Shown here piece by piece: positions 18,985-60,833 of a stretch of 64,000 nt of DNA (position 1 is the first letter of the stretch; every line of letters begins with the position of its first letter). The notes beneath the pieces are model-generated. The model was not told where the DNA came from. It saw only the letters and a program-made list of their open reading frames with translations, and ran no database searches. Source of the stretch: Chloranthus sessilifolius (lineage: Eukaryota > Streptophyta > Magnoliopsida > Chloranthales > Chloranthaceae). The DNA lies in NCBI GenBank assembly GCA_021018995.1, contig CM037587.1, positions 89,401,251 through 89,465,250 on the forward strand. Reading direction: 5' to 3'. The translations under genes and the position numbers were made by a program.

Positions 18985-19290
18985 TTTGTTCTCTTTTCGA
19001 GAAGTTTAAATATGTGAAAAATTAATTCGCAAAGTAAAAATTGTCTTTTCGCAAAGTTAAATTTACTTTTCGAAAAGAATCTGGATTTGTAACGAACTGC
19101 TCGAAAGCAATGATTTGCTTTTCGAAAAGTTGTTTCTGAAGCTATTAGCTTTTCGAATGGTACTGATGCCATTCTCTGTTGTAAAAAGGACTGTTTTGGA
19201 ACTTTTTGAAAATTTAAAAATGACTTTGCGAAATTAACTTTGAGCATATTTAAACCCTTTCGAAGTAAGGGTTTCATATTCGAAAGCTTT
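18985..19290 (+). promoter_or_regulatory. TTCGAAAAG palindrome array upstream of the Athila extra ORF
   Basis: CTTTTCGAAAAG and variants (CTTTTCGAGAAG, CTTTTCGCAAAG, CTTTTCGAATGG, CTTTCGAAGTAAGG, TATTCGAAAGC) recur about ten times between pol and the extra ORF. CTTTTCGAAAAGAATCTG here (19070 on) is shared exactly with the Athila LTR (24069 on). A TATA-like CATATTTAAACCC lies near 19244. The array ends about 270 bp before the ORF start. Inference: an internal promoter or protein-binding region copied from, or co-evolving with, the LTR. Confidence 0.65.
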
Positions 19291-19561
19291 CTGAGAACGT
19301 CTTGTTCCACAGAAACCCCATTTCTTGCTTTCCTTGCGTGATTTTAGAATTCAGCCACACTTTTCTTCACATTTGTTCGATCATTTGAGCTTTAAGAGAG
19401 GGATTTTAGCTTATGGTCTGGTGGATTTCAGCAAGCAAGCAACACGTTCAACCAAAAACCCTAGATTTCGGTATTTTTCTGCACATTTCCTCTGTTTATC
19501 ATTTGCAAAGTTTGATTTTGTGTCAGCATTTGTTGTGGGCATTTTTATACACAAATTTAGA

Positions 19562-21829
19562 ATGGGGAAAGCTGAAAAATCACTGGCTGCCATGTTCCCA
19601 AAATCTTCTGCTAAGAAAATTAGAAAACCAACCCCAAAAGGAAAAACCAAAACTTCAGCCAAAAGAAAACTATCAATGGATAGAGCTGATAGGATTGAGA
19701 AAGGGAAGAAAGTTAGACATGAGGAACCCATCCCTGCAGCTGCTAGTCCTGAGCCTGAGCTTCCTCCTCTGCCTATGCATTTGGTACTGCCAAATCCATT
19801 CATTGAAGCTCAAAAGCTGATTCCTGAGCTTATTGTGGACGAAACTTTTTCACAACATACGGATCACTATCTTTAAGATACATGAGGGATGCCTCACTAA
19901 GCAATATCCTTACCCCTCTGCCAGAGAAAATTTATTCGCGAATGGTGAAATTATGGTACCAAAACCTGGTAAAAGTGACAGAAAAGGATGCTGATGTCCA
20001 TACTCTTGTTATCTTTATTGATGATTGTGATCTAACTGTCACATATGAAGACATTGGGAATGCTTTGGAGATACCTTTTCAATATGATCCTTCTGGTCCA
20101 TTGGCTGCACCAGAAGCAACCTCCTTCAGAGAAATGGCTGCACATTTAACCCAAGGGATCGTTGGAACTGGACAGTCCATAATGAGGAGAGACCTAGCCC
20201 CTCAATTTTTATTGATGGATTCAATTTTGAGGGGAAGTTTTTATGTCACCGGGCATAGCCAAGAAAGGAGGACACCAATTTTAGAGGCTCTCTTTCATTT
20301 TTCTAAGGGGTAATTTTTCAATGCCCCTATGTTAATTTTTGAAGCCATGGCTGATATTAGTGCCAAGTTGAAAAAGGAACAGAAATGAGCTGGAATCTCA
20401 TTTTGTAGACTGATCACAACCCTACTAAGAGCTAAGTTTGACATTGATGACCAGGAGCTAGTTGAAGTCATAGCTCCTCATACTTTTGGGAAAAAGGCTT
20501 GGACTACAAGCCAAGCAATGCTGAAAAGACTGAGAGAGGAAGGTGAGCCTGCACCTGCAATTGCTACTGAGCCTGCATCTGCAGTTGTTAATGGACCTGC
20601 CATACATGAACCTGCCCCTGCAGCTCCCTTAGAACCGGCTTTGCCAGACCCTGAGGTGACCAGCTCTTTAGCTGCACCCATTCTTGAAGAAGCTGTCCTT
20701 CCTGTGGTGACCAGCTCTTCAGCTGCACCCATTCTTTAAGAAGTTGGCATTTTACCCTCCTCACCTAGTCCAGCTCCTACCACTTCACCTATTCCAACAG
20801 TCCCATCTCCCATACCCACCATTATCCCAATTGCAGATTCCCCCTCTACACCAACCACTCCAACCATACTCACACCACTAATTTCTCCCACCAATGCCCA
20901 AGACTTGGCCACAGATTTTATTGAATAATCTCCTTGCACTCCTCTTCTCCAAAGCCTCTCAAGTTCACCTGCTCCTTCAGCCCACACACCTGAAGTATCC
21001 CATACCCCTGAACCTGAGCCTTTCACTACAGAGGCTTATTCCTCATTGATGGGGTCTATTTTTGAAAACGTTGGGCTTGAACCTGTCCCTATACCTGACC
21101 CTCCTCATTTCACTCACTTGGCTACTTCTCCCTTTACAACCATTTCACCCATTGCACCTCCACCATCCATTTCAGTTTTACCAGCCCCTGCTATGCATGC
21201 CTCCCCCACACCTGAATCTATTAGCCAAATACTTACCTTTCTCCAATCCATCCAAGCCCAACTACAGATCAACAGATAATCTCATGACCAATGACCTTCT
21301 CCAAACCTTAGCCTCCACATCCCACACAACTACCATAACCACTGTACCTGCTGTTGATGACCATGCTACCCAAACTGAACCTGAGGTAGTATTGGTTGAT
21401 CTGTCCACCCTCACCACTACTGCCCATGCTACCCAAACTGAACCTGAAGTAGCTCTGGTTGAGTCCCCTTCACCTCTCCTCACTTTCTCTAATCAAGCTA
21501 ATCAGACCGACCTTGAAGTCATCCTTCTGGACCCCTCTTCTCCCACTCCCACAGCCGGGATACCTTTGGTCCCCTATCATTCCATTCCCATTCTCAGATT
21601 TGCCGCTCTCAAAAGGGCCATGGAAGAAAATCCATATATCTGTAGAGATGTCCTCAAGGGGTTAGCTGATTTGCAAGCTTACATTAGAACCCCTTATGAA
21701 AACCAGATTCGGAAATTGGAGTTATTCATGAAATTTGAGAGAGAGAAAATGAAGGACCTACTGGGTCAAACTTTTCAGATGGTTAGGAGTGAGCAGCACA
21801 AGGTGACCATGTTGCAAAGCATGCCTTGA
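19562..21829 (+). pseudogene. Athila extra ORF (putative plant transposon protein domain), broken
   Basis: ATG 19562 opens a basic, NLS-like N-terminus (KKIRKPTPKGKTKTSAKRK). After a TAA and frameshift at 19874 a second frame from 19882 carries the conserved domain (MVKLWYQNL, LVIFIDDCDLTVTYEDIGNAL, HLTQGIVGTGQSIMRRDLAP). A Pro/Ala-rich linker follows, then, in the first frame again from about 21285, a duplicated HATQTEPEV motif and a helical tail (NQIRKLELFMKFEREKMKD). There are about six lesions. This position in Athila has been called env-like; I see no signal peptide or membrane segment, so I call it an extra ORF of unknown function. A related protein is encoded at 58819-60321. Confidence 0.8.
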
Positions 21830-23760: not shown

Positions 23761-23776
23761 GCTAAGGTTTGGGGTG
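23761..23776 (+). promoter_or_regulatory. Athila polypurine tract
   Basis: GCTAAGGTTTGGGGTG directly abuts the 3' LTR start TGTTGAG. It is the plus-strand priming site. Confidence 0.8.
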
Positions 23777-25645
23777 TGTTGAGAACTAGAAAATATCATC
23801 TTCTACCCTTTAACCTAGGCCTTGATAGACCCTTGAGAGACCTAAATAAGTGTTTTAAGTGCTTGTGTTACAGCTAACAATAAAGACAGGCTTAACCATA
23901 AAAGCAGCCTAAAAGTGCCAAAAAGATGATAATCCATGTCGATCCAAAGGAAGAAAGAGAAGGGACAACCTCACTAGCTGTCAAAATGCCTGAACTGAAG
24001 AGGCAAAGACCTGGTCTCAACCCAGAAAAGAAATGTGGAGCAATTCGAACAGAAAAATGCATTACAGAGTGCTTTTCGAAAAGAATCTGAACATTTCGAA
24101 AAGAATCTGAACTCTGCGAAAAGAACTAAAAGCTCCAAGCTTAGTTTTCGAAGAGCACCTGAACTCTTCGAAAGGATGATTGACCTATTCGAAAAGAAGA
24201 GAACTCCTTGCGAACAGAACCTAAACTTTGCGAAAAGAGCTTCAGGAGTCACAGTACTTTGTGAAAAGTCCCCTAAACGATACGAAATGGTATTCTGGAG
24301 ATTCCTAGCTTTTGCAAGGGTAATTCAGTAATCTTTTTCATGCGTCCCAATGCATTTAAAAACCTAGAGACATTCCAGAAGATTCTAAGCATGAAGCGAA
24401 GGCATATTCCACCCCATGTGAGCACCCGAAGATGAAATCACTTGGCCGGAACTTCTAGAAGCTCTAACAGATTTTCAAATTACATAACAGAATTGATGCT
24501 TATGTCGCCTGATTGGCTGGACCAGATCGAGCAATTCTGATTGGCCAGAACAGATCTGGATCCTTGTGCTCGACTACCATTGGTTGATACAGATCTGAGC
24601 ACTTCTGATTGGTCGATACGCATCTGAGCTAGACCTGGGGAAAACTATAAATAAATGAATCATTTGCCCAATTTGGGTATCCAGATTTTGAGTTTCATTC
24701 CTATTCCCTCATTTCCAAATCAGCTAGTTTGTCTGAAACCCCTGTAATAGCCTAACTTTTACTTGCAATTGAGAGCTGTGAGATACCTCTGTAATTCAAA
24801 AGAGAATTATATTCAAGACTACAAATCTGAGAGCTGTTTAAGCTGTGCTCTGTAATTGTAATAGTGAATTTGAAAAGGTTACTGTAAACTGTACATTCTC
24901 AATTGGATTCGTGTTAAGGGTTCCCTCTGATCTCCTTATTGCACTAGACTCCTTTAGATTTACTATTTTTCATGCAATTTCCCTTGATTCATTAACCCTA
25001 TGGGAATTAGTGTTTGTAACCTAATCTCTCACAACATTTGTAGTGATATTTCTTGTTCTAAATTAAGGGTTTAGATTAAAGACTATTGGATGGTCTGTGG
25101 CCATTGAAGTGGACAGACCATAGCCATAAGCCTAAATCTAATCCTTGAGTTAGATTTATTTCTCTTACATCTGTGCTTGTAGCCAGATGAAGATTGGATC
25201 ACTTCTCATTTGATCTGCAGCCATTCTCATTGTGTTTCAAGGACCAAATCAAAGTTAGATATTATTTCTCCATTTTTATAAGTTTACATCAAAATTCCCC
25301 CAACTCAGATCTGGATCATTTAGTTTAACTTTTACTTTTACCATTTAGTTAATGTGACAAATTTAACCTCCCATCTTATGTGCTTTGTAGATAGGATAAG
25401 AGGCCAGATCTGGTAGCTCAGATATGGAGGTTTATCTTGCATTTTAAACAAATTCTCTGTGGACGATCTTTTACTTACTTACATTTAAAACTTGCTACAA
25501 TTGGCCCTGATCTTGCAGGCTAATTCACTTCTCTCTGTGCTGATATTTCTTTACTCTTTTTAATGTTCCAGATTCAGTATAACTTAGCAGTTGCAAATCT
25601 GTTTTCAAAACACAAATAAATCATGCACACTTAGAATCAACAACA
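23777..25645 (+). repeat. Athila 3' LTR
   Basis: 1,869 bp, nearly identical to the 5' LTR and retaining the segment lost there. At 24040-24290 it carries about ten TTCGAAAAG-type motifs (GCTTTTCGAAAAGAATCTG, ATTTCGAAAAGAATCTG, CTCTTCGAAAGG, ATTCGAAAAGAAG, TTTGCGAAAAG). It ends CAACAACA. Confidence 0.95.
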
Positions 25646-26259
25646 GAGGGCCCAGATTACATACTAAAAGAAGGGAGCTTTCGCACAAGAATTTGTACTC
25701 TGTTCAGGGATTGTAGAATTGTGCTTTGTGGATATGGTGAGTTAAGTTTTGGTACATTCGTGCTAGTGTACACCATTGTTAGGTGATGGTTGGTCATCAC
25801 TGGTGTTTATTTAATTTTGTTCTTGTTGGATTTTAAATCTGAAGGTTTTAATTATGCCATATGTAATAATTGCTTTGATTTCTGTTATTTATGGATGTGC
25901 CAAGTATTCTGTATCAGATTGTGGTTTACTATCTGACGGTTCAGGTTTTCCCATTGGGTTTAGGATGAAAAAAAAAAAAAATTCAAAATTTTAGGTTGGG
26001 AAAATGCGGGCTGTCACAGAGGTACCTTTAAAAGAAAGCCTTACTATTTTGGGGACTTGTGCCATGTGGAAATACCATATCTAGGCCGTTTGATTCAAAG
26101 GCTATGATCTAAATATTTTTAATGCAAAAAACTTGCATGACACATGATTTCTCTTTGATGATTCAATGCAGTCACGACTTTCATTCAAATTATGTAGCAA
26201 GTAATGGCTCCTGCGGTATCACAATGTAAAAATTAATATCGCTTTCTTTCAAACACCAT

Positions 26260-27065
26260 CTATGTTGTCTGATTTGAAGGCTACAATGTAGAGATCAAAT
26301 GTGCCAAAGATTGGCACAAAACATGCTCTCTAACATCTGTTTTTTCACAATTGACTATCAAATTTAATCATTGGTTCAACTAACGAATCGTTACTGATCA
26401 AATAATCAATCGTTATTGCTGGACTAATGAATCGCCACCGATCAAATAAACAATTGTCATCGCTCTTATAAACAATCGCCATAAATAGGATAAGCAATCG
26501 TCATCGATCGGATAAACTATCGCCATCGATCTGATAAAGAATCGTCTTCGCTCAGATTAGATGAAAAGTATTTTAATATAAAATTATTGGTTTATTTCAC
26601 ATTGAACATTGTAGTTGAGTTGGCTGGAGCATTTGGTTTGGAACGGAAAGACCTGAGTTCGATTCGTATTAGCGCTTATTTTGGATGCGGAACTGCGATG
26701 TTTGCGCTCTTTTATTAAGTCTTTTTTTATATGGTGTTTAATAAATGGCGATTGCTTATCAGATCGATAGTGATTGTGTTTCCAATCGATGACGATTGCG
26801 TATCCAATCGATGGTGATTGTTTATCAGATCGATGACGATTGTTTATTTGATCGGTGGCGATTCATTAGTCGAGTGATAACGATCGATTATTTGATCAGT
26901 GACGATTCGTTAGTTGCGCCAATGATTAAATTTGATAGTCAACTGTGAAAAAACAGATGTTAGAGAACATGTTTTGTGTCAATCTTTGGCACATTTGATC
27001 TTTACATTGTAGCCTTTTTTTGAATCAGACGACATAGATGGTGTTTGAAAAGCGGTATTGATCTT
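26260..27065. repeat. Large imperfect palindrome (fold-back core) with iterated ATCG modules
   Basis: The left arm (26260-26560) and right arm (26740-27065) are inverted copies. For example CTAACATCTGTTTTTTCACA pairs with TGTGAAAAAACAGATGTTAG. Each arm holds 8-10 degenerate units of about 21 bp of the form GATAAACAATCGCCATCGATCG. The roughly 180-bp loop contains a tRNA-like sequence. It is part of the MULE-like element. Confidence 0.85.
26605..26680 (+). other. tRNA-derived sequence in the palindrome loop
   Basis: TAGTTGAGTTGGCTGGAGC (26612-26630) closely resembles a tRNA D-arm/A-box (TAGCTCAGTTGGTTAGAGC-like). GAGTTCGATTC (26655-26665) is a T-arm/B-box. The spacing is tRNA-like and the middle resembles an anticodon arm. 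The acceptor stem does not pair well and no CCA or clear anticodon is assured, so it is a tRNA relic or SINE-type Pol III promoter, not a functional tRNA gene. Confidence 0.6.
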
Positions 27066-27469
27066 TCCATTGTGATACTGTGGGAACCATTACTTGCTAC
27101 ACAGTTTGACACCCATTGACTGATTTGATTTTAATGGTCCTGATCATTTTTCATTCCAATCTTTCACATAATGGATCTTGAGATCATAGGTGTGCCATCA
27201 AGTGATAAGTTTTTGATTTCATGTGGTAAACATCTCTAAAAGTGACCTTATTTCAGTTTGATGAGTTCCACACGATGTTAAGATCACTTTTTTAGAATGG
27301 ATACCATGTGAAATCAAATACTAACGGTAGATGGTAAGAGCAAGATCTCAAGATGCATCATATGAAAGATTGGGATGAAAAATAATCTACATCGTCGGGT
27401 TCAAAGCAGCCAATGGAATTCAACGTGGGTGAACTTAAAGATTCAATGGGTGGATTTAAAGGTACTCTA

Positions 27470-28695: not shown

Positions 28696-28782
28696 ATTAT
28701 GATGTTCAATCACTTCAACCCGAGTTGTTGTTCAACCATATCTATTTGTGTCATCCAATGGCTGGATAATAAATTGCACACT

Positions 28783-29224
28783 TGTTGGTACGCCCTTTTT
28801 CTAGGTTCCTTTCGGTCCTCGGAAGAAGTAGCCCAATTCGGTCCACGTGGACTTTGGCGAAGGCGGTGGATAATAAACTAAGAGATATTAAATGCAAAAA
28901 AAAGGTATATTCTGAGCGAAGAATACTTGGTTCGATGCGATCGTCAACTGTAGATATTTATTGACGCTGCAACACGTCGTTGATCATGCTTTACAGAGTG
29001 TGGGTTGACTTCTTTGTTGAACGTCGGCCGGCCGATTTCAACAGTTGTAGGTCGCCTAAGAGTCTAGTTAATCTAGTTTCCTTATCCTACTCTAACTTTG
29101 ACTAATTTGGTTTCCTAGTGCTACTCTTATTCTGTCTAACTTGATCTCCTAATACTCCTCTAATTCTATTTAGTTTAGTTTCCTAGTACTATTCTAATTC
29201 CAATTAATTCACTCTACTTTGATT
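28783..29224 (-). repeat. Tat 3' LTR, only the U5-side 442 bp clearly retained
   Basis: Aligns with 48147-48570 (shared GGATAATAAA, AGAGATATTAAATGCAAAAA, TTTACAGAGTGTGGGTTGAC). Beyond about 29224 only faint matches remain (AAAATATT...). The U3 with its palindromes and the TGTAGACACCCC start are not found here, so this LTR was truncated or rearranged after insertion. Confidence 0.85.
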
Positions 29225-32110
29225 GCCAAGATGTTGTTTGGTGTGCTGGATACTCCGACTAACCTTTCCCGCGAGTACTGATGATTGTCTCTTATGGGAG
29301 GACTACAGTGATTCACGTATCAAGAGAGTCGAATTTTGAAAATATTGGACTTAATATTATCTTACTATATTTTACAAGGAATATCAAGTAGAGGGGGGTA
29401 ATACTTACCTAGTTTATGCTTTGGGTATTCTTGGACGGAGTCGTCATGTGATGGGACATCAGAGAGTTCCCTCTCCTCTTCCTGTTGGAAGTGTATGCTT
29501 TTGTCATGATGGGGCTTGATGTTTATTTGAGGAGGTTCAATTGTCACGATGGGATGTGGTGGTTGTCGCGAGGGGACATTTGTTGAGCTTCCTCCTAGTC
29601 GCGTGATGTGGTATGCTGTGATGGGACGTTGGTGGTTATGCGACATGACTTATTATTCGCGAATGTTGTGATGGGACATTGGGGGTCATATGATGGTTTA
29701 GTTCATCCTTTGGCAGATCTTGGGTTATGATGGGATAGTTGGTTCGAGTGATTCACTGAGATCGTGACAGGACATGTTTGTTTGCATAACCACCTACATC
29801 ATTCGAATTAGTTGTCTTTATCACCTCCTTGACTACTATGCCTCCTGCTAATTTTTATTTTCATATAAAGTCAAAGCCTTCTTATTGGTGTTTATGCCTT
29901 GTCTCTTCGATGTCAAAGATGACTTCCTGCATTGCTTGGGTATTGTCACTATTGTCTTCAAAGTCGAGTCCTCCCAGTGTCGAGGGGTGGCCCTCAGTAG
30001 GTGTGTAATCCTAAGTGGGGAGAATATATCTGATCTCCAACTTAATGAAAGAGAGTAGTCTGCAGCTTATTCCGGCGGATGCTTCACTTGGTGGCAACAA
30101 ATAGATGGATTCGTTTCGTTCTCTGTCGTAGCAGCTTTCATTCGTATTCGTTCGCCATCGGTCTTGGCCAGTGCTTCAATGGGAATTGGGCTTCGGGTGG
30201 AGCTGTCTTGGTGAGGTTTTGCCTGAGGGTTCCTTGGTCGGTGGCCGCGATGGGACTGTGAGGGGTAGGCCTTTCTGGTTTTAACTGTGGTGGGGTGTTA
30301 TTTATGATACTCTTTCTTATGTGCTTTGCTCTTATTACCGTTTCGAGTGTCATTGCGATTTTTCGCGATGGGACTGTACAGGTGATCTTTTTCCTATTTC
30401 ATTTTGATTTTTATTTATTTTATTTTGTTCTTTATTTTGATTTGCTTTATTTTGTTTTATTTTTGTATTGTATTTTATTTTTTATTTGTTTTGTTTTACT
30501 TATTTTATGTTTTTTTATCTTTATTTTTTTTATATTTTTTTGTATCCTATTTCATTTTATTTTTGTCTATTATATTTACTGTGCTTATTGGGGTGGGCTA
30601 AGTCTCTTATTGACTTTAACGGTGTGAGTGACAGGCTACATTTTGGGGATTTGTTTTAGACTATTTTGGATTTTGTTTAAATTTTGGGGTTGGTGGAATT
30701 TGCTTTTGTCATAAAGGAATTTCATGTGTTTATTTAAGGTTTGTTTTTATTCTCTTGTTTTGTGAGTGTGACACTTGTCAGTGGGTGTGTTTTAAATTAG
30801 AGTTAGATGAGTGTGTTGGGTGTTTTAATGTCATTGGTTCATTTATTTTGCCATGGATTGTGGTTCCTTAATTGCTTGGATATTGGATTGTGTTTTGTTT
30901 AAAGGGGGTAAGTGTCTTGTGGTTATTGGTTTATCTCCATTTGCCATGTCTTGTGCTTTGTTTGAAGGGTTAGCTGTCTTGTTTTGATTTAATTAGATAG
31001 GGGATGTTTATGAGTGTGACACTTGTCACATTGTGGTTAATGACTTTTTCATATAAATGAGTGCTTAGGGGTTGGGTTTTATTTTGAATTTTGCTGATTA
31101 TTTTGGACTTGTAATAAATTTTGGCCTTTGAATTTTTATTACTGTCTTTCCTTCCTTTTTATTTTGTTTCCGGAGTGTTGTAATGACGATTTATTTTTGG
31201 GAATGAGCGGTATTGGGAATGTGGAGTAGTGCTCAAAGTGCTACTGTGTTGGGGGAAGAAATGGAAGAGTTAAAGGTGGAGGGAAGAAAATCAAGGAAAA
31301 GAGATGGGTCAGAGTTCTCGTGATCGATCTCAATTGCTCCTTGGTAGGCTCTGTGGATTGACCTTTTGTCAACCCTCCTTTGGTGGCTTCTAAGATTGGC
31401 CTTTCATAGGTGTATTTCTCGGTGCCTGAGTGGCCTTCTGTGAGTTACTCTTTCTTTTCTGCCGGCTAGGGACTTCGCGATGCTGTTGGTTAATAATGTA
31501 ACTTGGAAGATTGCATCATGAGCAACATCTCAAGTAGCAAGGAAAGTGAAGATGAGATTTGTGTCAGAACTTGCTCAGCCTATGCTTCCTCTTCGGGCCT
31601 CTCAGTCATCTCTCCCTTTCTTGTGTATCATCATTTGGGCGCCCTCCCTTGAGTACTTACGGTCTTGAGTGTCTTTGGGTGTTTTATCCTGAATTCAATT
31701 TCTTCTTTCATTTCGGATTGTATATTCAGGGGGTATCCCTCTGATGTGATTTGTAAAAGTTTTTTTCGTATTTGTGAAAATGACTTCATTATTTGGTTAT
31801 TTATTTCTCTTTTACTTTGTTTGGAGTCTAATGAATTTTGGTTTGAGTTAATTCTCGTTTGGTCTAGTTTAGTTTGATGGTGGATTCTTGGGTGCATTAT
31901 AGCTTGGGGATTTGGTTTATGTGCTCAAATGGTCTTCTTCGCAGCGTGTGTGCGCGTGGGTGTGAGTCTTTTCTTGTTTTTGGAGCGTGTATGCTTGGGT
32001 ATGGAGTGCATCTGGTGGGGTGCAAATTCTGTGTTATTATGTGTGCATATAGCCCTGTGTTTCTGCATCCAGCTGCTGTTGGTCCTTGTACATATATTTT
32101 TTTGCTATAA
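29225..32110 (-). other. Rearranged Tat interior near the 3' LTR, with a gag-linker-like relic
   Basis: On the minus strand 29646-29365 reads MSHNHQRPITAYHITRL, then a Pro/His-rich run with PHPIVTIEPP. This resembles the gag-linker start of the same element at 46264-46037 (MPNHNQRSISHITTVDLPS). GATGGGACATTGG-type units recur on + at 29448-29780. 30380-30560 is a T-rich tract. GAGTGTGACACTTGTCA occurs twice (about 30766 and 31014). No intact gene. Confidence 0.5.
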
Positions 32111-32114
32111 CTAG

Positions 32115-32490
32115 GGAATTACGCGTAGTGGAGTAGGTGCTTAATTTAATTTCGCGTATATGCCATAGCGCGTGATTGGGGGTTCAGGGGGTTAATTGCG
32201 CGTACTATGATTGACGCTGAATCCAATTTCACACATGGGGTAATGCGCGTGATTGGAAAGTCGACGGTTCGCCAAAACGGGTGTCTGGGCTTCTCTTGAA
32301 TTCCACGTATCGGCGGACATCCGTGATTCCAATTGCACGCAGCTTGAAGTGCGCAGGTTTGGTTCGTCGTTCACGTGGGTTGACGGAGGTCTAATCGCGC
32401 GCAAGTAGTCTTGCACGTAATTTTGAATCCGCGCAGTTTAGTTGGTGTGTGATTCAATTCCGCGTGGCTTTTGAAGCGCTTAATTGACCG
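32115..32490 (+). promoter_or_regulatory. CGCG palindrome array and promoter of the antisense PMD gene
   Basis: About eight imperfect palindromes of the form AATTNCGCGYA, about 10 bp, RTGCGCGTAATT (for example AATTTCGCGTATATGCCATA then GCGCGTGATT; AATCGCGCGCAAGTAGTC then TTGCACGTAATT). A TATA box CTATATAA follows at 32495-32502, about 170 bp before the ATG. Units of the same form fill U3 of the Tat LTR (49080-49520), where they also precede a TATA box but on the minus strand. Confidence 0.7.
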
Positions 32491-32672
32491 ACATCTATAT
32501 AATCCGAAAAAGTTTCTCATTTGACTCGCGCGTTCTGATTCTTTTGATTTTCTTGCTTCTCTGCTTTCGAGTGCTCTAGTTTCCGTGTCTTTGCGATATC
32601 TTGCAATCCGTCCGTCGGATTTTAGTGATGTTTCTTTCATTTTTCTCCATTTTTTGAGTACTTTCTTGTGGG

Positions 32673-35600
32673 ATGGAGCCTGAGGGTAGCATGATTGTCT
32701 CGGAGTTTGTGCAGATGTTGAGCGGTGAGGGTGCTCCGGAGGTTCCTGCTGCGAGGGGAGAGGTGGTTCCCGCAGTCGCCGAGGAGAGTGTTGAGGTAGC
32801 CGTTGTGGTTGACGAGGATGATATTCCTCCTGGTGATGAGGGCGAGGTTACTCTTGTTGTTGATGGTACCGACCCACCTCAGGTTAGGTGCTTAATACGA
32901 ATCCCGCTAGCAGATGCCTTCGCGACGAACCAGGTAGGCACTCGGAAATAAGAGTTCCTTTATTTTCCTAGGCATTTAGGCTATAATGTAGACTATCTAG
33001 GATATGGAAACCTATTTGTTTTAAGCAGAACTTGCATTTGGTCATGGCTTGCATGCACATTCATGCATCATGCCCGTATATAACTCTAGATCATGTTTAT
33101 TTTGTTGTGTCACTTTTCTCATGTTTTGCATGCCTATTGCAGATTATTGTCATGTTACTTGTTTTCTTTATCACAGCCATCTAGATTATGTTTCTTATGC
33201 TATCTTGTCTTGTAGCTTTTAGGTTATTCATTTTCAATGCATTATCCGATGTGATTACCTTATTCCTTAGTGTTAGTGTTTGCTGTTTTCATCGCGTTTC
33301 ATCGTGCTCTTTTTTGTTATTGTTTTTTTATTGTTGCTATTATGTATTTTGTTTGTTATTATTATTATTGTTATTATCATTTTGGCTACTTTTATTATCC
33401 GTTCACTCTTTCCGTTTATTACCAACTTGCCTGTTGTCAACTTATTTTGCTATTATTGTCATGGTTGGTTACCAATTGTTAGTTACCTATTATTATTATT
33501 GCTATTATTACCATTAGTATCTTATCATTACTCTTATCATTATTATCATTATTATTATTATTATTTTTAATATTATTATTGTTATTAATATTTATTATTA
33601 CTATTATCACTGTCATTGATCTGCTATCAGTAACTTGTATTATTGTCTATTAACCTTATTTTTTGTTAATTCTTATGTACTTTTCATAGTTTCATCTTAC
33701 GTTTTCTTTCTTTGTTTCGTTGGTTGTGCGTTTAGGAGCCCCTCTATTTGTCCATTAGCTCTGTGTGGGTTGAGTCCCATGCATGGTACCGAGCTCTCCC
33801 TACATTCCAGCAAGCAAGACTCGCGTCTTTTGGTTTTGGGCTGATTATGGGGCTCGAGCCTTTCCACCCCGACATTGGTTTAGTCAGGGCCATAGTGGAG
33901 AGATGGAGGGAGGAGCATCATGCCCTACTGTTCCTTGCGGGGATGATGCTTTTGATCCCTGAGGACTGGGTACGTGTGACTAGCGTGAGGTTTGAGGACG
34001 AGCCCGTGACTGGGCAGATGTTGTCTGACTATTAGGTGGCTTGGGTAGAGTTCCTTGGACTAGAGTATCCTTCCAGCGGGTTAGGGTTGATTCAAACCAC
34101 TTGGTTCCTTAATACCTTTGCTGCGGAATTCATTCCCCTGAGATGTCACCCAGAGTCTGCGACGGCGTATGAGGAGCGTCATATGGAGATAGAGGCTCGT
34201 GCCCCCGTGCTAGAGGTAGGGGTTGATACTGATCACGTCATCAGGGCCTTCCTGATGTACTTTTTTGGAGGAGTTCTATTTTCTTCATCCACCCGGGGGT
34301 GTGTTATTGAACTATTTATGTCGCTGCTCGTGGACCTGGATCGAGTCTCTTCGTATGCATGGGGTGCGACAACGTTAGCCCATCTTTATGGGCAGTTATT
34401 TCACCGTGTGAGGGGAGTTGCTACCATCGACAGTTTTATTCCCTTCCCGCAGGTGAGGTTTCAGTTTTCTCTTTTATAAGTCTCTAGGATTAGTCGTCTT
34501 CTTTTAGGGGTTTTATTGATGTGGTTTTGCTTCGTGTTTGGTTAGTTATGGGCGTACAACCATTTTCTCTTTCTTCACCCTAGGGCTCCTCTAGGAATGG
34601 CGCCTACATTTTTGTGTATGTACATGTGGCAGACTTTGATGGGAGATTGCTGGAGGAGTACAGACCTCCAGACTGCGAGATGGCTTTTTGAGGATATGCA
34701 CCTTGGTAAGGTGCGTGTACACTTTGTTTTGTTAGTGTTGTTTCGTTTTGTATCTTCGATTTTACTGACATATTTGTTTTGTTTGTTTTGGGGTTATAGG
34801 TCACTTGGAGACCTTATGGGGATGACGAGGGCACTGATCAGGATATGATACAGTCTGGTTAGGCTTTTTTCAAGCGAGAGGTATGGGTCCCCTGCTTTGA
34901 GTAGGTGGAGCGGATCCACCTCTCTCGAGCTGCGTGCCAGTTGGAACTTCCCTAGGGTCCGGAGCTTCGCCCACGAGTGGCGAAGAAGACTGGTGCCCCT
35001 GGCCACTTTTTTGAGAAGAAGATGTCAGAGAAGTATTTAGATTTTAGGACTAGGGGGACCGAGGTTATAAGGGCTCGTGAAGAGGCAGATGCTCGGGCCT
35101 TCACGAGATGGTTCAAGGAGCTCGGTGGCCGGCTTTTTACCCAATTCCCCTTCCAGGGGAAGAGCTCTTTTGGTGTTTGTGGGCTTGATTTCGTCGGGGC
35201 ATTGAGGGAGAGAGTGGTCGAGTTGGAGCGGGGCTAGCTGAGCCCGGGGGTTTGCCAGGCGTTGGAAGCCCTGCATCTTGCACAGGAGCGGATGGGGAGT
35301 GCCCCCCGTCCTGACTAGGAGATGTTGAGGTCACTGGCGGCCTCCATAGTTGATGCTAGAGCCGCAGAGGATGGTCTGAGGGGTCAGTTGAGGACACTCG
35401 TCGTGCTCAGGTGAGTTTGTTAGCTTATTTTCTTTAGTTAAATTGGGTTCAGCTGGTTTTGTTCTAATAAGTCGTTGTGTGTTTGTGTATTTTCAGGCGA
35501 TGAGGGAGAGCGAGGTCGCCCACCAGGTGTAGTATATCGAGCTGCTTTGGGAGGTGAGCAGTAGGCTGGTTGTGAGGTGGAGGTCAATTTACGCTTAGAG

Positions 35601-48144: not shown

Positions 48145-48146
48145 TT

Positions 48147-49724
48147 TGTTAGTACGCGCTTTTTCTGGGTTCCTTTCGGTCTCAGGAAGAAGTGGCCCGA
48201 TTATGTTCATGTGGACTCTAGTAAAGGCAGTGGATAATAAATTAAGAGATATTAAATGCAAAAAAAGGTATATTCAAAGCGAAGAATACCTGATTCGATG
48301 CAATAGCTAGCTGCAGACATTTATTGATGCTACAACGCATTGTTGATCACGCTTTACAGAGTGTGGGTTGACTTCTTTATTGAACATCAGCTGGCCAGCT
48401 TCAACAACTGTGAGTCACCTAAGAGTCTAGTTAATCTAGTTTTCCTGATCCTACTATGACTAATTTGGTTTCCTAGTGCTACTCTGATTCTGTCTAACTT
48501 GATCTCCTAATACTCCTCTAATTATATTTAGTTTAGTTTCCTAGTACTATTCTAATTAATTCACTCTCCTAATACTACTTTAATTAAAAAAAAGGGGGTT
48601 GTGGCCCTTTATGCTAAGGAGGATCGGCCCTGTTTCTGGGTACCCTCCGTAAGCTCCCTCAGGCAAATCGGGTGGCTAAAGGTTATTTTAAAAATATTAG
48701 ATTTTAAAAACTGAATTTGAACTAAGAGCTAAGAATTAGAAATTGATGCTAAGAATTAAGAATTAAAGCTAAGAATTAAGGTCTAAGAAGTGGGATTGAA
48801 AACTAGAAGTATGAACTAGAACTAAAGACTGAGAACTAAGAACTAAGAATTAAAACTAGAAATTAAGAACTAAGAACTAGAAACTAAGGACTAAGAATTA
48901 GAACTAGAAATTAAGAACTGGAACCGGGGAGAGATTACCTGAAGTTGAGCGCTTCTTCCTCCTTCCAGCATCGTAGAAAGAAACTTCAAAATTCCCAAGG
49001 GGCCTAAGCTTGAGAGAGAAGAGGCTTCTATGAGAATTGGTGAGTTTGGGCGTAGGGTAGGGGTCTATTTATAGGTATTGAGCTAATTTCGTGTATGGTG
49101 CCATGTGAACGTATGACCGAAGGTGCTCAATTGAATTTCGCGCATAGTACGATGCGCTTAATTCACTGAGTCGGTCACTGACTTAGGAGTGACCTACCGA
49201 GCAGGTGTCCTAATCTCAGTATGCCTTGGGACTAATTTCACGCATACACCTATGTGTGGAATCCGATTCCACGCAGCGATATCTGCGTGGGATCGGGGAG
49301 GTCGGGAGGTCATGGGAACTAGAGTCTTAGTCCGTGCTTGTACTGATTCCATGTGTGGTCCCACACGTGTAATCGAATTCCAAGCTAGAAGGGATGCGTG
49401 CAATTTGGGACTTTAGATGGTGTACGGTAGTGGAGGTCTGGTCCATTTTGGCTCAATTACGCGCATTATGTCATGCGTTCAATCAATTATGCACATGGGT
49501 TATGGTACGGAATTGAAGAATATCTCGGGCTGGGTCGGGTTCGAGTTTCTGGGTTGATATTTCAACCCATACTTTGACTCTATGCTATGTGCTTAGTATA
49601 TAGTCCCCGTATTTAGGGTTTTAAGGTCTTCAGAGAAGGTTAGTCCTTTTTCAAAAATTGTGGGCAAGGTAGGTTGACTGAACATGTTTGTATACTCCAA
49701 GAGGGCGAAAATGGGGTGTCTACA
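48147..49724 (-). repeat. Tat 5' LTR with U3 palindrome array
   Basis: 1,578 bp; on the minus strand it begins TGTAGACACCCCATTTTCGC and ends ACTAACA. The U3 (49520-49080) carries AATTNCGCGYAT-type imperfect palindromes: AATTACGCGCATTATGTCAT then GCG, AATTTCACGCATACACCTAT then GTGTGG, and CACGCAGCGATATCTGCGTG. A minus-strand TATA box CTATAAATAG lies at about 49063-49072. The transcribed part has an A/G-rich AGAACTAAG-type repeat at 48720-48920. Confidence 0.92.
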
Positions 49725-50364
49725 ACACTGAATCAGACCCACTTGGGTGGGAACATGTTCAAAACCCATACATACCACTAATGCATTTCTTGATGAGCCA
49801 TATATCGATCTAATCTTATCATTCTTATGTTATCTTCGTAAAGAGAAATTGAAGTATTCCCCAACTTTCATTCCACATAACGACAACGTTAAATGTGTTC
49901 GCTTTGGGTTCGTGTTTATTGCTTTTATTTTCAGTGATATTTTAGCTTATACATATAAGAAAAAAAATCTTTCTTTTTCGTGTGTGTCGGTTCCATATTT
50001 CTCCCTATGCTAAACTTAAAACTTCATGGGTGCTTATCGTCCTACATGAAAAAAATATACACTAGCTTCCAAGAAAATCAAAGTCGAACAATTCTCGTCC
50101 ATTTGAAGGGCGATGCACATTACTTTCCATCACTAGCCCGTTTAGATGATTTTTAGCCCCCTCTACGGATGTAAAAAATCGGAACTTCAAATGAATTGAA
50201 TGGGCATATACTATTGCTTTAAATGACGAAAAATGCAATAGGTGTGTGATCACAAACGTGTAAAAGGAAGTTCAAATTTCCATGTGATCAATTACAAAAA
50301 CTAATTCGTAAAGGAAACTATAACTTTTAGAACACTGCAGATATAAATAGTCAAGTCAAACAAT
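49725..50364. other. Non-genic interval
   Basis: Right flank of Tat, starting with the ACACT duplication. No recognisable gene. Confidence 0.5.
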
Positions 50365-52840: not shown

Positions 52841-53030
52841 AATGTATGTTAAATACCAAGACACACTCATTGTAGTTTCATTAATGGAAATCTTCGTCAG
52901 TCGCTATCCCTAAGCATAATTGTCTTAATCTCTACAACTCATAGCCACAAATATGTAAAATTTTTCCTACTTATTTATTTATAGTCACAATACTATGATT
53001 AATTTTAACACCTTTTAATCACTATTATAG

Positions 53031-53848: not shown

Positions 53849-53916
53849 GCAACATTAGTAGAGCCTGCTTAACAAGTCATTGTAGTATGATATATTTATG
53901 TTTTCTGATTTTTTAG

Positions 53917-54815: not shown

Positions 54816-55214
54816 TTGACTCATGGCTGTAAGTGAAAACTTGCCTACACCATGGATTAACATGCATTCCATGAAAGAAAAAAGGCCCCTCGCATCCTCT
54901 GTTAACCCTTGTTCATAGTTTTAATTTTTAACGAATATATTTTGTCTACTCTCTCATAGGTAGTGTAGAGTTCATGAAAAACAACACATAAGAATCATAT
55001 CTAATTTCAATTATAACAATTTGAAGGTTGAAACATTCTTACCCACATGGATGAGAAGCCATTCTGCTACTTGTACATGACCGATTATTCCACTTGTGAA
55101 CGTAAATATGAGCACTATTAGCTTCCTTCTTTGAAATGCTTGATTGACCAAAATATTAGTTTAAAGTTGTTAGAAAAATGGAAAGACTATTAAAAAATGG
55201 GATCGTAAATATTG

Positions 55215-55815
55215 TGACCACTCGGACCCAAATATTGTCCAATTCTGGCTTAGGTTTCCGCCCCAATTTTGCTCCTAGCATAGGTGTTACGTATCGCCGT
55301 CCTTACCCAAAACATGTCCCAGACCTCACAACTGAAGATATTTGCTGGCTCTAAGGTTAAGTCCCCTCCCCAGTTTTGTCTGTGGAATGGGCTTAAGTCC
55401 CCACCCAGAACGCGTCGTTATATGTGAGGGTCAGTTGCACCTCATAGCTAAGGCTCATGACAAGTCTCTATCCGATGTGGTACTATCACAATCTCCCCGC
55501 CTTATTGAAGAGTCGTCCTCAACTTTGATACCATTTTGAGACGACCCGGACCCACATGCCATTGATATTATCTAGTTCTGGGCTTAAGTCCCCACCCTGA
55601 TTTTTCTCCTGGCATAGGCGTAACGCATTGCCGTCCCCACCCAAAACGCGTTGTTACATGAAAGAGCCGGTCACACCTCATAACCCAGATTCAAGACATC
55701 AGTCTATCTGATGGGAGATATTACAAACCCCCCCCCACCTTATAAAAGAGCCATCCTCGGCTTTGGTACCATCTATGACGACCCTGACCAGACTATGATA
55801 TGGTCCGATTTTGAC
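55215..55815. repeat. About 320-bp tandem repeat, 2+ copies
   Basis: Unit 1 (about 55215-55535) and unit 2 (about 55538-55775) share GGACCCA, TTCTGGGCTTAAGTCCCCAC, CATAGGCGTAACG or variants, GCCGTCC and CACCTCATA. A third start (GACGACCCTGACCAGACTAT) begins near 55776 and is cut short. Similar GACCCGGACCCA repeats are common in plant genomes; the class is unknown to me. Confidence 0.75.
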
Positions 55816-56134
55816 CTTACAATTCTCTATCCGATGTGGGATTATTATAAATATAGAGGGAATCCATCCAAGGCACGAAGAATTTTAGTGTCTTTAAACC
55901 AATATCCACCAAGGATTCCCAGCAAACTGATTCCAAAATCCAAACTAACTGATTTCGTTTTCTTGTTTAGCATTGGTGAATCCATCCATGCTTGTCCAAA
56001 CACCAAAAGATCACCAATAAAGTTATGATAAAACTTTTAACTAAAAGTCATAACGACAAAAAACAAAAATTTTTGAATCAAGAAACTGCGTAGGGAACGG
56101 GTGCTTTGAATATTAATGAAGTGGTGTTTAGACA

Positions 56135-58629
56135 TGTGACAGCTCGGATTTTCTGCACCCGAAAATCCATTCCATCAGGATCATGCTCTGGATGATCCCC
56201 ACGACAAATCACAGAGTGTCTGCTCATCTAGTGGAAATCAGAGCAGACACTGTCCAGTAGTGGCAGATCGAGTCATCATATATGGATTTAAGAGAAAGAA
56301 AGAATAAACAATGCATATTTATAAGATAAAAGAATATACATTCTCCAAAAAGGAACCAAGAAGAACCACTGGTGATGGACATCCATCACCCAAAACAATG
56401 GTTCCTAATAGTGGTTCCTACAGAATGTATAACAATACAAGTAAACACAACATTTATAATAATAAGTACAGATGGTGGCCACCAGGCACACAAATAATCT
56501 AGAATTCAGTACGAAAACTAAAAAAGTACAAACTAATACCCAGACAGCTAATAGAACTCGTCAGTTGGGGTATCGGTATCCTCCTCCTCAACCTCAGCCT
56601 CCGGATTAGGCTGGTAGTCAGGATCGCTCTCTGTACCGGGCTCTAGCATCAGAACCTATTAATGCTATAGAAAACAAGGTGAGCTATATCTAAGCTCAGT
56701 AGAAGAATCACAGCTAAAATTGTATTGAAAATATAAGACATGATTTACAGGTAATATCTTAAACAGATAATCAAATCAGAATATGCAGACATGATAAATT
56801 AGATGACATGTACTGAGTTTTTAAAGAACAGAACAGATGCTATTATTATATAATTTGTGACTTAAATCATGCATATTTCTAACTTAAGAAACTCCTGTGA
56901 ATATATAACACGTGGTAATCAGGTATATGCTGATAGGAAATCCCAACCAATCGTCGTTCATATGAACAATTTTTAGAGTGCAACAATGCCTCATCTATGG
57001 AGTGCAATTGTGCCGAGGGATTATTGAAGCAGATGCATGATTGTGCCAGGGCACGGATATACCGCCGAGTTAGTGGGGATCATCTGGATTAAATACTTAA
57101 AATCACATACACACATATGACCTCAAGAATCAGATATCAGAAATCAGAAACAGGCTTCAGAACACAGAAATCAGAATACAGGAATCAGAGATGATAGAGA
57201 TTGATTGATATGCAAATATGCTTTTAAAATAGAAAATCAGGATACAGATGTGCAGGAATCATGAAATCATATTCAGATATATTTTTAGGTTGGATTTCTC
57301 CTACCTTAGATCAGACCTCTTTCTAAGCAAATCCAAAGCTTTTCAAAGCATCATGGTCTGATCCTAAACTACAGACATAGTACACTAAGTGTCAGACATG
57401 TCAGGATACTAACTGGCATAGTGCCCAGTAGTATTTTGTCCACAAAACTAAAACAATAGAAAAATAGGGGTGATTGATCGATCAATCCATCACCTTGATC
57501 GATCAATTGTCTTCCTTGATCGATCAATCATCTTATTTAACTCACACTGATCTAAGTAACTTGATCGATCAATCTTCTACATTGATCGATCAATCCCTCA
57601 ATTTGATCGATCAATCCAGACGGACTTTAAAATTTCAAAAATACCGCCCCTCTGTTTGTATAACTTTTATATAATTTTGATCGATCAATCTCTAAATTGA
57701 TCGATCAATCCTCCTCATTGATCGATCAATTTCCCCATTGATCGATCATTCTTGCCTTTTGATCGATCACATCATTGTGATCGATCAGCCTTTCTTATTG
57801 ATCGATCAATTCCAAATTTAATCGATCAACCTTCAGAATTGATTGATCAAACTCCAAATTGATCGATCAATGCTCATCGGGCATCGAACTTCCAGAAAGC
57901 TCACTTACTGTTCCCATTAACTGGTTATACAAATTGATCGATCAATTCTTTACCTTGATCGATCAATCCCAGTATTGATCGATCAACTCACTGCCTTGAT
58001 TAATCAATAATGACAGTTTTCTGTCATTAATGGCGGTCACTTGTTTTGACCTATTTTCACCATTGATCTTTAATGGTTTCTAACAACCATTTATACATAT
58101 CTATTTTGCACATTTAGAACAGCAAATCTGTGGCTCCGCTTCAACACGTAGCAACAGCACACCACCTTGCAAAGTAAATACGATGTACCGACGTTGGTCC
58201 CACGCTTTCGAATCGAGCAATCTCGACCCAATATTTCTTCTAACTGTGGTTTCTCAAAGCAACCACCCAAACCTTAACCTAGCTACCGATCTTTCAGGGA
58301 AAAGAAGAAGAAGGAGATGCAAGACATATATCCCAACCTTCTTCCTTCTCTTATAAGCTATGAAACAAAAATATCTTTGATATTTCTGTTTTACTTGAAC
58401 TTAAGCTCCGGTGTGGAGCACCTACACAGTTTCTATGGCGTGCCACACCTCATCAAGGGTTTACATGACTCGGACTTAAACGAGAAATCACACATGACTT
58501 CGCTCTACCACAGATTAATATTATCTTTCATAATATTAAATTAAATATTTTTTAATTTGTCTTTATTTTTATGTCGGGCACGTATATTGAAGCAGTAGGT
58601 TTCTTGTTCAGAATTTTAGGGCTATTACA
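56135..58629 (-). repeat. Tekay 3' LTR
   Basis: 2,495 bp. On the minus strand it starts TGTAATAGCCCTAAAATTC and ends CCGAGCTGTCACA. It is preceded by a polypurine tract. It contains the TTGATCGATCAA array (57471-58013). Confidence 0.88.
57471..58013. repeat. TTGATCGATCAA array in the Tekay LTR
   Basis: About 17 exact GATCGATCA cores and a few variants at irregular 15-60-bp spacing, most with TTGATCGATCAATC. The identical motif recurs at 60524-60833 in the same element. Confidence 0.95.
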
Positions 58630-58645
58630 TTATCCCCCCCTTAGA
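58630..58645 (-). promoter_or_regulatory. Tekay polypurine tract
   Basis: On the minus strand CTAAGGGGGGGATAA directly precedes the LTR start TGTAATAGCCC. Confidence 0.85.
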
Positions 58646-58818
58646 AATTTTTGTCCTCGAAAATATCAGGGAGGTGTAGTCAGAGGAATGGTGTGCTCTA
58701 AGGCTAACAGTCATAGCAAAGCAGAACGAGCAGAGAAATACATCATGCAAAAACAAGGATGCATGCAGAACAGAATGTATATTGAAAGCAGAATAAAATA
58801 CATACACAGATATAATGA

Positions 58819-60321
58819 TTAAAGAACACAAATAATAGCATAGGAAGTACCTGTCGGGGCATTGAAAGGTCCGGCCTCGTCAAGTGCAGGTCTGCTGGGG
58901 CGAGGTGGCTGGGTATTGTAGTCACGAGGATCCACGGTATGCTGACGAGCATGAGCGATCATCGGCGTCGATGTGGTGGTATACAAGTGCTGCATCACGA
59001 GCTCGTGCATGCCCACATGGTAATCCAACCAGCGATGAACCTGATGCTGAAACTCCTCCATCTTGTCCAGCCGCTCGTGGATACGCCGGTTGCCCTCAAT
59101 GAGCTCACGAAGCATCGCTTCCATATCAACGGTGGAAGGAGTAGGTCCACACGACGTAGAGGCACAGGCAGGTCGGCGTATAGGGGTAGGTCGAGGAGAT
59201 ATCGTCGGTTAAGGTGGCTGATTAGGCTGGGCCTCCCCCTCACCAGGAACTCTCTTTGGCTACACGGTGCCCTCCTCAACAGCAAGCTGCGCTGGCTCTT
59301 CACCCTTCGAAACTGAAGGATTCTCCTCCTCTCCCTCAGGCAACCATTTGACCAAAAGGTTATAACTCTTAGTCCAGTCTTTTAATTGAAACACTTTCAT
59401 GTTATTGGTCAACCGAGGCTCACTGGGAGCCAAGCTATACGCCTCTCTCAAGGCCACATAGTGCTCAACCATCTTAGTGATGAGGCGAGCATAAGGCATC
59501 TGCTTCTTTGAAGCAACCTTGGTCTTCTTTGACATCATTTCTTTGGCATTGATCATGCCATCAAGAACCAAATCGGCAACGGAGAACCAACGGTCCTCAA
59601 AAGCCGAGAAGAGCGCCTGTTGCGCAATGCCGCTCCGTGCGGACTTGTACAAAAATGGGTTGAGGGCACACTTGATAAATGTATCAAGCATCCACAACCG
59701 GTTGGGGAGTTGAGCTCAGGTAATGGATTGCCCTAATCCATGCTGACCTTGGGTCATTTTGGTGACCACGTTGTGAAATGCGACGTCCTTGATGTACGGT
59801 GGCGCCAAGCCACAAGTCTCAATGTACACCGAAGTGCACTGTAGGGCAGCCGCGACATGAAACTGGTTGAATTTATACTCAAACCCATCAATCGAGGTGA
59901 CAAGTTGCTGTCGGTTGTCGCCCCGACGGAGGTTTTGGAAGAAAAGCTTCACGATTCAGGGACAATAATAATCGTGAAAGGACTCCAATAAGGGTTTCAA
60001 CCCTAGCCTTTTGATGTAGTCGATGGCCCAAGTCATTTTGGGCCGATCCTTAAAAAGCATAGAGGCAAAAACATATTCGGATAGGAAGGTTTTGGAGCCC
60101 ACCACTGATTTGGGGCTTCACATTGGATTTGGAGCGGTAGGGGGTTCAAAAGAGGGGGACACCACGTTCTCAACAGGTACCACCGGTAGCTCAAAGGTTG
60201 GTGCGACTGGTTCAGCGTGCGGCACTGATGCACGAACTCGGGATGTGGGGATTTTGCGCAACGCATTCTTTGTTCGCGGCCCCATAGCGTAATAAGGTTC
60301 AAAAAGGCACAAAAAACCCAA
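58819..60321 (-). pseudogene. Extra ORF of the Tekay element, Athila-like transposon protein
   Basis: A single frame of about 500 codons from ATG 60321 (or internal MGPRTKNALRK, 36 nt later) to 58819. It has in-frame stops near 60118, 59950, 59716, 59260 and 59190, so only a handful of substitutions break it. The order is: basic N-terminus; conserved domain with VTSIDGFEYKFNQFHVAAAL, the MTQGQHGLGQSIT block and RLWMLDTFIKCALNP; MPYARLITKMVEHYVALREA; Pro-rich linker; coiled-coil tail (MEAMLRELIEGNRRIHERLD). MTQGQHGLGQSIT aligns with LTQGIVGTGQSIM of the Athila extra ORF at 19562-21829, and the overall architecture is the same. Function unknown. Confidence 0.8.
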
Positions 60322-60523
60322 ATTTAAAGGAGGTTAGGGTTTATCGATTTGGCCGAGTGAAATCCGAGCTAAATTCGTGCGGAGAGGAGTTTAGGTAGCT
60401 AGAAATCACCTCGAAAGGTTGCTTGAACGTAAAGCAAATGAGAACCCCGTTGAACGATTGAAAACTTTGATCGTGCAAATGAGATTTAAAAAACCCCAAT
60501 CGTTACTTAAAATGATAGGGTTG

Positions 60524-60833
60524 ATTGATCAATGCTTAAATTGATCGATCAATTCTTAAGTGAAAATATCCTAGCCGATACCTTGATCGATCAATCCCTC
60601 AAAATTGATCGATCAATGTCAAACTTAAACTGCCCTATCTCGACAGCCTTGATCGATCAATGCACTTACGTTGATCGATCAATCCATAAAATTGATCGAT
60701 CAATCTTCACTTTTGATCGATCAAACATTCTAAAATAGCCTATGGTTCAAACCCAATTTGATCGATCAATCTTATATATTTGATCGATCAAGGTCTAAAT
60801 TTGATCGATCAAGCCACCAATTTGATCGTTCAA
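60524..60833. promoter_or_regulatory. TTGATCGATCAA array upstream of the Tekay extra ORF
   Basis: About 10 exact GATCGATCA cores plus two variants. It begins about 200 bp upstream (minus strand) of the extra ORF's ATG at 60321. The stretch between is AT-rich with AAACCCTAACCTCC-type leader sequence and a TTTTTTAAAT box. Same motif as in the 3' LTR. Confidence 0.75.

Follow-up and report, generated by a model that had tools for sequence, protein, structure and literature searches.

We analyzed a 64,000-nucleotide stretch of the Chloranthus sessilifolius genome (contig CM037587.1, positions 89,401,251 to 89,465,250; hereafter the window), from a genome of 2.17 Gb in 32 contigs, in which it is part of contig 4. 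It contains three retroelements with long terminal repeats (LTRs), each of them carrying an extra open reading frame (ORF). Self-comparison and Pfam searches revealed in an Athila-type Ty3/gypsy element two LTRs (aligned by self-BLAST in two pieces with 95.7 and 93.6% identity) and pieces of gag, protease, reverse transcriptase (RT), RNase H and the integrase zinc-binding domain. In a Tat-type element on the minus strand the right LTR, a piece of the left LTR and pieces of RT and integrase were found in the same way. The third, Tekay-type element is also on the minus strand and is represented in the window by just its 3' part, with pieces of RT, RNase H and the integrase zinc-binding domain. 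The lineage names were taken over from a preliminary description of this DNA, according to which each element has a motif of its own arrayed both in its LTR and before its extra ORF; all three pairs of arrays were indeed found in place (Table 1).

Table 1. LTRs, motif arrays and extra genes of the three retroelements (positions in the window)
Feature	Position	Strand	Details
Athila 5' LTR (approximate)	11533–13328	+	array of CTTTTCGAAAAG-like sites at 11810–12035, 8 sites
Athila array before extra ORF	18993–19290	+	identified by motif counts; TATA-like CATATTTAAACC at about 19245–19256 (by eye)
Athila extra ORF, broken, Transposase_32-like	19562–20736	+	pieces 19562–19873, 19828–20310, 20389–20736
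Athila 3' LTR (approximate)	23765–25645	+	array at 24041–24289, last site with 4 mismatches
TATA-like sequences of Athila 3' LTR	about 24352–24364; near 24645	+	GCATTTAAAAACC; second candidate ACTATAAATA (both by eye)
Tat left LTR, partial, no array	28782–29218	-	85% identity to 48146–48570
Tat array before antisense extra gene	32117–32486	+	bipartite palindromes; identified by motif counts and geometry
TATATAA box between Tat array and extra gene	32496–32502	+	about 176 bp before ATG
Tat extra gene, antisense to the element	32673–34845	+	exon 1 ATG at 32673; plant mobile domain pieces 33736–34032 and 34036–34476; further piece 34546–34845
Tat 5' (right) LTR	48146–49725	-	array at about 49085–49514; TATA CTATAAATAG at about 49065–49074 (minus strand, by eye)
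Tekay-type LTR array of TTGATCGATCAA	57474–58007	-	20 sites mostly 20–21 bp apart, in 3' LTR starting near 58629
Tekay-type extra ORF, broken	58822–60285	-	pieces 60121–60285, 59959–60117, 59719–59955, 59263–59715, 58822–59208
Tekay-type array upstream of extra ORF	60521–60833	-	12 sites

Density and structure of the motif arrays

The motifs are concentrated in the arrays of all three elements. With up to three mismatches, the Athila motif CTTTTCGAAAAG was found 8 times in the 5' LTR array, 10 times in the 3' LTR array and 7 times upstream of the extra ORF, against 1.05 sites per kb elsewhere in the element (39 sites in total; mean of 20 shuffles 15.8, maximum 26). The Tekay motif TTGATCGATCAA, with up to two mismatches, has 20 sites in the LTR, 12 upstream and 0.32 per kb elsewhere (34 in total; shuffle mean 0.85, maximum 5). 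For the Tat motif AATTNCGCGYAT (up to three mismatches) the corresponding numbers are 13, 18 and 2.53 per kb, and the total of 82 sites compares with a shuffle mean of 65 and a maximum of 74; this loose half-site is common everywhere, and its clustering alone is unusual.

When the LTRs were excluded and the interior of each element was scanned with its LTR motif, the densest stretch was in all three cases the one before the extra ORF. The 10.4-kb Athila interior contains 17 matches to the LTR motif TTCGAAAAG (up to one mismatch on either strand, so that a full palindrome may count double), 13 of which fall within 306 bp at 18993; in the 5.4-kb Tekay interior, 12 of the 14 TTGATCGATCAA sites (up to two mismatches) are located within 316 bp from position 60521. 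None of the 200 dinucleotide shuffles made for each element equalled its cluster. A 30-bp bipartite form of the Tat motif (up to six mismatches), which had been derived from the arrays themselves before this test, has 8 sites in the LTR and 10 in the 17.7-kb interior, including 9 at 32117–32456 (mean of 50 shuffles 0.42, maximum 3). Thus, the motifs are enriched before the extra ORFs over shuffled sequence and over the rest of the element, as had been proposed, and these counts and scans rule out chance or low complexity as the source of the arrays.

A scan that used no predefined motif listed 45 arrays in the window. The Tekay arrays occupy ranks 1–3 and the Athila arrays ranks 6, 9 and 16, while the Tat upstream and LTR arrays rank 13th and 29th, the LTR array of Tat thus not being conspicuous by this measure; unrelated arrays rank in between. 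Exact sites were also counted in the whole genome and compared with the motif read backwards: 65226 against 317 and 11860 against 337 for the two TCGA-centred motifs of Athila and Tekay (206- and 35-fold), and 220 against 0 for the bipartite form of Tat.

Adjacent Athila sites are spaced by 20, 21, 29, 31, 32 or 41 bp in the LTRs and by 20–22, 26, 27 or 30–32 bp before the ORF. Tekay sites are mostly 20–22 bp apart, with gaps of 42–46 and 70–72 bp in the upstream arrays. In Tat, the half-site AATTNCRCGYAT occurs in pairs that face each other at a distance of 18 bp (21 cases); the next pair follows after 13 bp (6 cases), or the period is 31 bp (8 cases). These distances were determined in 14 hand-picked arrays of the window and of eight further copies, those of LTRs and promoters being combined. 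For Tat, this paired geometry is the telling feature.

TATA-like sequences follow both arrays in Athila and in Tekay (by eye). In Tat, the LTR array stops just ahead of CTATAAATAG, and a TATA box follows the array at both places. The preliminary description of the Tat arrays stood, with three corrections: the motif is bipartite, the extra gene is antisense and in pieces, which we infer to result from introns plus damage, and the LTR array is visible in the right LTR alone, because the remaining piece of the left LTR stops short of the array part. Near the left LTR side, scattered copies of GCGATGGGAC are located at 29450–29766; at least four copies with up to one mismatch were also found in 13 of the 20 flanks of other Tat copies (L061–L080) described below.

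Recurrence of the arrays in the genome

To describe the arrays in other copies, homologs of the extra genes were collected from the genome. For Tekay, 150 of 24,571 candidates were scored and the best 30 were taken, the copy from the window included; close relatives are over-represented in this sample because the best 30 were taken. With up to one mismatch, an upstream array (4–15 sites) was revealed in 28 of the 29 other copies, and sites in the LTR piece likewise in 28 of 29.

Alignment of the 30 Tekay loci showed that the motif is conserved better than its surroundings. The mean frequency of the majority base is 89.7% in 170 motif columns, 76.1% in 212 spacer columns and 76.2% in 267 columns outside the array (one-sided p = 1.8e-13, an optimistic value because the columns depend on one another and the repeats make it easier for the aligner to match the motifs up). 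When the window copy was left out and a different reference was taken, the values were 90.4, 76.1 and 77.0%. We used the figure for all 30 loci because the choice of loci with at least 9 sites, which leaves 25 of them and gives 95.7% against 79.8%, favours the motif. In the 25-locus set, the central CG is the least conserved part of the motif.

For Athila, 150 of 40,418 candidates were scored and four were taken, one being the window's own. The upstream array is present in all three other copies, and the LTR array was found in two of the three stretches at the expected distance, the third being other sequence. Among the first 50 exact Athila sites on contig 1, distances of 4.9–5.1 kb (8 pairs), 7.4–7.5 kb (4 pairs) and 12.4–12.6 kb (9 pairs) recur, pairs from one element not being independent; these are near the distances between the Athila arrays of the window (about 5.0, 7.2–7.3 and 12.2 kb).

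For Tat, 150 of 6,277 candidates with the plant mobile domain (PMD) were scored and 20 upstream flanks were taken, 10 of which stop short of the extra-gene promoter and were not counted there. Of the 20 flanks, 18 contain one or more clusters with a minimum of three half-sites. Exon 1 was recognized in seven of the 10 other copies, all seven with a TATA box at -158 to -181. Within 700 bp upstream of the ATG these copies have 3–11 sites (shuffle mean 0.6, maximum 3; L065 has just 3), nearly all of them before the TATA box. The copies without exon 1 (L062, L063 and L070) have 0–2 sites, and their whole 5' part seems to be lost or displaced, because the first exon was likewise not found. Copies L065, L070 and L077 have clear LTR arrays of the CGCG type next to an identifiable end of the LTR.

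Two Tat copies that were inspected over a longer stretch, L067 and L068, contain a second unit of array and TATA box in tandem, about 1 kb upstream of the PMD promoter. This unit (L067 2520–3490, L068 2435–3300, oriented along PMD) precedes a short unit. The window seems to retain the 3' part of such a second unit near 31713, with no array (by eye).

Extra proteins

The claim that the motifs differ between the elements and that the extra proteins belong to two families was borne out. The Athila and Tekay proteins are homologous to each other (hhalign probability 98.3%, E = 1.7e-14). Transposase_32 (PF20167) matches six of 13 proteins of this type at E <= 0.1 (best 1.3e-8), a weak match, with 17.1 bits for L033 against a cut-off of 45. 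The Tat protein belongs to the plant mobile domain family (PF10536): the window piece scores 44.8 bits against a cut-off of 34.9, and all 11 pieces match at E <= 0.1. Both kinds of genes are under constraint, with a median dN/dS of 0.24 for Tekay (10 open pieces of 30 loci) and 0.21 for the PMD exon of Tat (10 stop-free pieces); each value is drawn from 45 pairs per family, and the selection of open pieces favours young copies.

We next compared PMD with DUF1985, the domain of VANC proteins. Of 4,046 candidate DUF1985 segments in the genome 150 were scored, and all those listed are above the cut-off. The PMD model matches eight of 12 such segments (L085–L096) at E <= 1 (best 1.1e-5, below the model cut-off), and the DUF1985 model matches three of 11 PMD segments at E <= 0.1 (best 0.0036). 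The Tat piece of the window matches a home-made DUF1985 profile with E = 5.3e-5, and direct comparison of the two families by hhalign gave E = 0.0014 with a probability of 17.7%. From these profile matches, distant kinship of PMD and DUF1985 appears likely, and the two possibly form one superfamily.

Other searches gave no further relatives. Among 5371 candidates from a set of 5.8 billion proteins, none matched a Tekay extra protein at E <= 1e-3. No sequence relatives of the extra proteins were found in PDB at E <= 1, apart from one match to PMD (E = 0.87) that was taken as chance. Alignment-free structure predictions of two window pieces had mean pLDDT values of 34.7 and 47.7, too poor for a structure search.

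A fourth family and other arrays

A fourth element was revealed inside the Tat flank L064 (1–2120; C3:35705363 onward). It contains a Transposase_32-like ORF, 29% and 33% identical to those of Tekay and Athila, which is followed by an LTR with palindromes CTCGCTCGAGCGAG (CTCGC-TCGA-GCGAG). This 14-mer has 11,123 sites in the genome against one for the backwards control. Among the first 50 sites, distances of 5.6–5.7 kb (4 pairs) and 2.6–3.0 kb (2 pairs) were observed, and we suspect that they would fit a second array before the extra ORF.

The class of the motif thus tracks the family of the extra protein: Athila, Tekay and the L064 relative have TCGA-centred palindromes, and the motif of the PMD element has another grammar. 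As retroelements, however, Athila is classified nearer to Tat than to Tekay.

Several other repeats were noted in the window and in the flanks. An LTR-like pair at 1217–1867 and 6053–6735 (82.6% identity) has GATCGAT-type repeats near 5974–6227 and may be an array-bearing LTR without an extra ORF. A minisatellite-like array of GGACACC repeats is located at 10743–11188, and an inverted repeat at 26185–27109 (87%), with 22-bp-period arrays in both arms, resembles an element with terminal inverted repeats and motif arrays. A further array, roughly ACCNNTCGANNGGT at intervals of about 31–33 bp, is present at 1242–2018 of L063 and at 6184–6721 of the joined L063/L010. Antisense in the gag region of Athila there is an Rfam match to snoR71 (14005–14110, minus strand; 58.8 bits against a cut-off of 40).

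A probable shared promoter module and its possible binder

The arrays were confirmed both in the LTR and before the extra gene, each family has its own, and further copies contain them again. Joint control of LTR and extra gene is therefore their natural reading, and they very probably constitute a shared promoter module. The array would serve as the control region of two promoters, that of the LTR, producing the gag-pol RNA, and a separate promoter of the extra gene. A dimeric DNA-binding factor on the repeated palindromes may drive both promoters or keep both open against silencing. If the extra protein acts on its own promoter and on the LTR, an autoregulatory loop would result, and each family would possess a new set of sites with a matched protein. 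Transcription from the extra promoter, dimer binding, the identity of the binder and the direction of its effect are what we infer in this scheme. The preliminary description had proposed such coordination by the extra protein or a host factor; the anatomy and recurrence of the arrays support the coordination and leave both candidate binders standing.

That the factor acting on both promoters is, or includes, the extra protein itself is the most likely of the readings considered, with in our judgement about an even chance. Three points favour it: the type of the motif goes with the family of the extra protein in four families, proteins of this kind are known from foamy viruses (Tas) and VANDAL transposons (VANC), and self-recognition would predict that each family has a motif of its own. 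Somewhat more tentatively, it can be hypothesized that self-targeting transcription circuits evolved in plant LTR retrotransposons at least twice, with unrelated protein families, each protein co-diverging with its private array. The PMD and VANC domains would then represent one ancient class of self-recognition by transposable elements, and host PMD genes such as MAIN and MAIL1 would be tamed relatives.

Several observations weigh against the scheme with a self-encoded binder. Copies with the ORF and without the array, which according to the preliminary description would refute its interpretation, do exist: one of 29 in Tekay (L045) and three of 10 in Tat (L062, L063 and L070, the three that also lack exon 1). 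Tekay copy L042 has no LTR sites at up to one mismatch. In Tat, one motif of L068 is located after the TATA box, the motifs of L066 stop about 250 bp before it, and on the LTR side of L079 (727–1337), and partly of L076 (13–208), another word, ATTGTTTCAG, dominates (14 and 5 matches) beside small CGCG clusters. In the fourth family, a TATA-like sequence close to the start of the LTR precedes the LTR array by about 450 bp (by eye), and the match between motif class and protein family is drawn from four families. The kinship of PMD and DUF1985 is weak, given the low hhalign probability, an E value of 0.002 for the unrelated DUF6580 in a single segment and an E value of 0.022 reached by a shuffled control of another protein pair; profile comparison of the Transposase_32-like proteins with PMD or DUF1985 revealed no link. 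The Athila and Tat sites may plausibly be phased on one side of the helix; a period of 10.5 bp did not emerge from the Tekay spacings, for which the best periods were 11.95 and 13.7 (the Rayleigh test not being decisive). Finally, palindromes and phasing fit host factors equally well.

A host-encoded binder has to be considered, since sites for host factors are known from plant LTRs, for example the BII boxes of Tnt1 (PMC3316501). Host transcription factors would then bind the arrays, and the extra-gene promoter would have gained the host sites of the LTR and, with them, expression in the same tissues or under the same stress. The promoter anatomy agrees equally with this explanation, and other arrays are also present in the genome; yet it has to account for four different motifs, each far above its control, and for the association of motif type with the extra protein family. 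We regard it as somewhat less likely than a self-encoded binder.

Promoter capture, in which a piece of the LTR was copied before the extra gene in each family and no special binder is involved beyond the normal promoter machinery of the LTR, is improbable. The sequences that follow the arrays are loosely alike (CCCTATNTTTT in Tekay, GCAT and then TTAAA in Athila; by eye), but the spacers of the LTR and upstream arrays of Tekay look unlike (also by eye), and in Tat the gene is antisense and it is the motif geometry that is retained. One simple LTR duplication per element is likewise unsupported, the LTR and upstream spacers looking unlike by eye. It is very improbable that the arrays are by-products of tandem-repeat expansion, low complexity or repeats related to small interfering RNAs, with no regulatory role: 31-bp units are indeed expanded in tandem in Athila copies L082 and L083, but the Tekay motif columns are better conserved than the spacers, spacings and orientations are mixed, and the place of the array relative to the TATA box is constant in seven Tat copies.

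Comparison with known systems

Extra ORFs located between pol and the 3' LTR, in sense or antisense orientation, are common to the elements described here, to Grande (gene23), to Retand (TRP28) and to Athila and Tekay elements with additional ORFs. Grande gene23 reportedly possesses a promoter of its own (PMC7264820). TRP28 of Retand has been proposed to bind DNA in a regulatory role, and tandem repeats were noted in about half of the Retand elements (PMC11963269). PMD is present in 57% of Ogre elements (PMC6317226), and a VANC-like role of extra ORFs was raised in discussion (PMC11728184, PMC12844716). The U3 sites of Tnt1, the BII boxes, are described as binding defence-induced factors (PMC3316501). 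The difference is that the factors of Tnt1 are host factors. We know of no extra gene with the same sites in Tnt1.

In the portions of the literature on VANC proteins and extra ORFs available to us, mostly outside subscription journals, no motif array common to the LTR and the extra-gene promoter of LTR retrotransposons is mentioned. Already known are LTR enhancers, the arrays of VANC systems and extra ORFs, together with a separate promoter in one case and the proposal that such ORFs act as regulators or in the manner of VANC; the shared array appears to be a new variant on these.

In foamy viruses, the accessory gene for Tas is located close to the 3' end and has an internal promoter, and its product binds DNA of both this promoter and the LTR (PMC4929722). 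The sequence anatomy of the elements studied here would fit a putative internal promoter of the extra gene that shares sites with the LTR; in contrast to foamy viruses, the extra gene of Tat is antisense. Tas sites are not known to form long palindrome arrays.

VANDAL elements encode an extra protein with DUF1985 and have dense, family-specific arrays of short motifs in their non-coding parts (PMC5735166). Dense family-specific arrays in their own non-coding DNA are shared by the elements studied here. The VANC precedent invoked in the preliminary description is somewhat strengthened for Tat, whose PMD is perhaps distantly, and weakly, similar to DUF1985; the Athila and Tekay proteins have no DUF1985 similarity and differ from VANC in this respect. 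Further, VANDALs are VANDAL/MULE DNA transposons, whereas the elements in the window carry LTRs and pieces of RT, RNase H or integrase, and the VANC21 motif YAGTATTAY is non-palindromic and has one orientation, in contrast to the palindromes found here at the LTR and extra-gene promoters.

What the extra ORFs of plant Ty3/gypsy elements do has long been an open question, and a private motif common to the LTR and the extra-gene promoter gives each extra protein a predicted, testable target. If this prediction is true, self-encoded transcriptional control or anti-silencing would be found not just in VANDAL DNA transposons and foamy viruses but also in LTR elements that are abundant in plant genomes.

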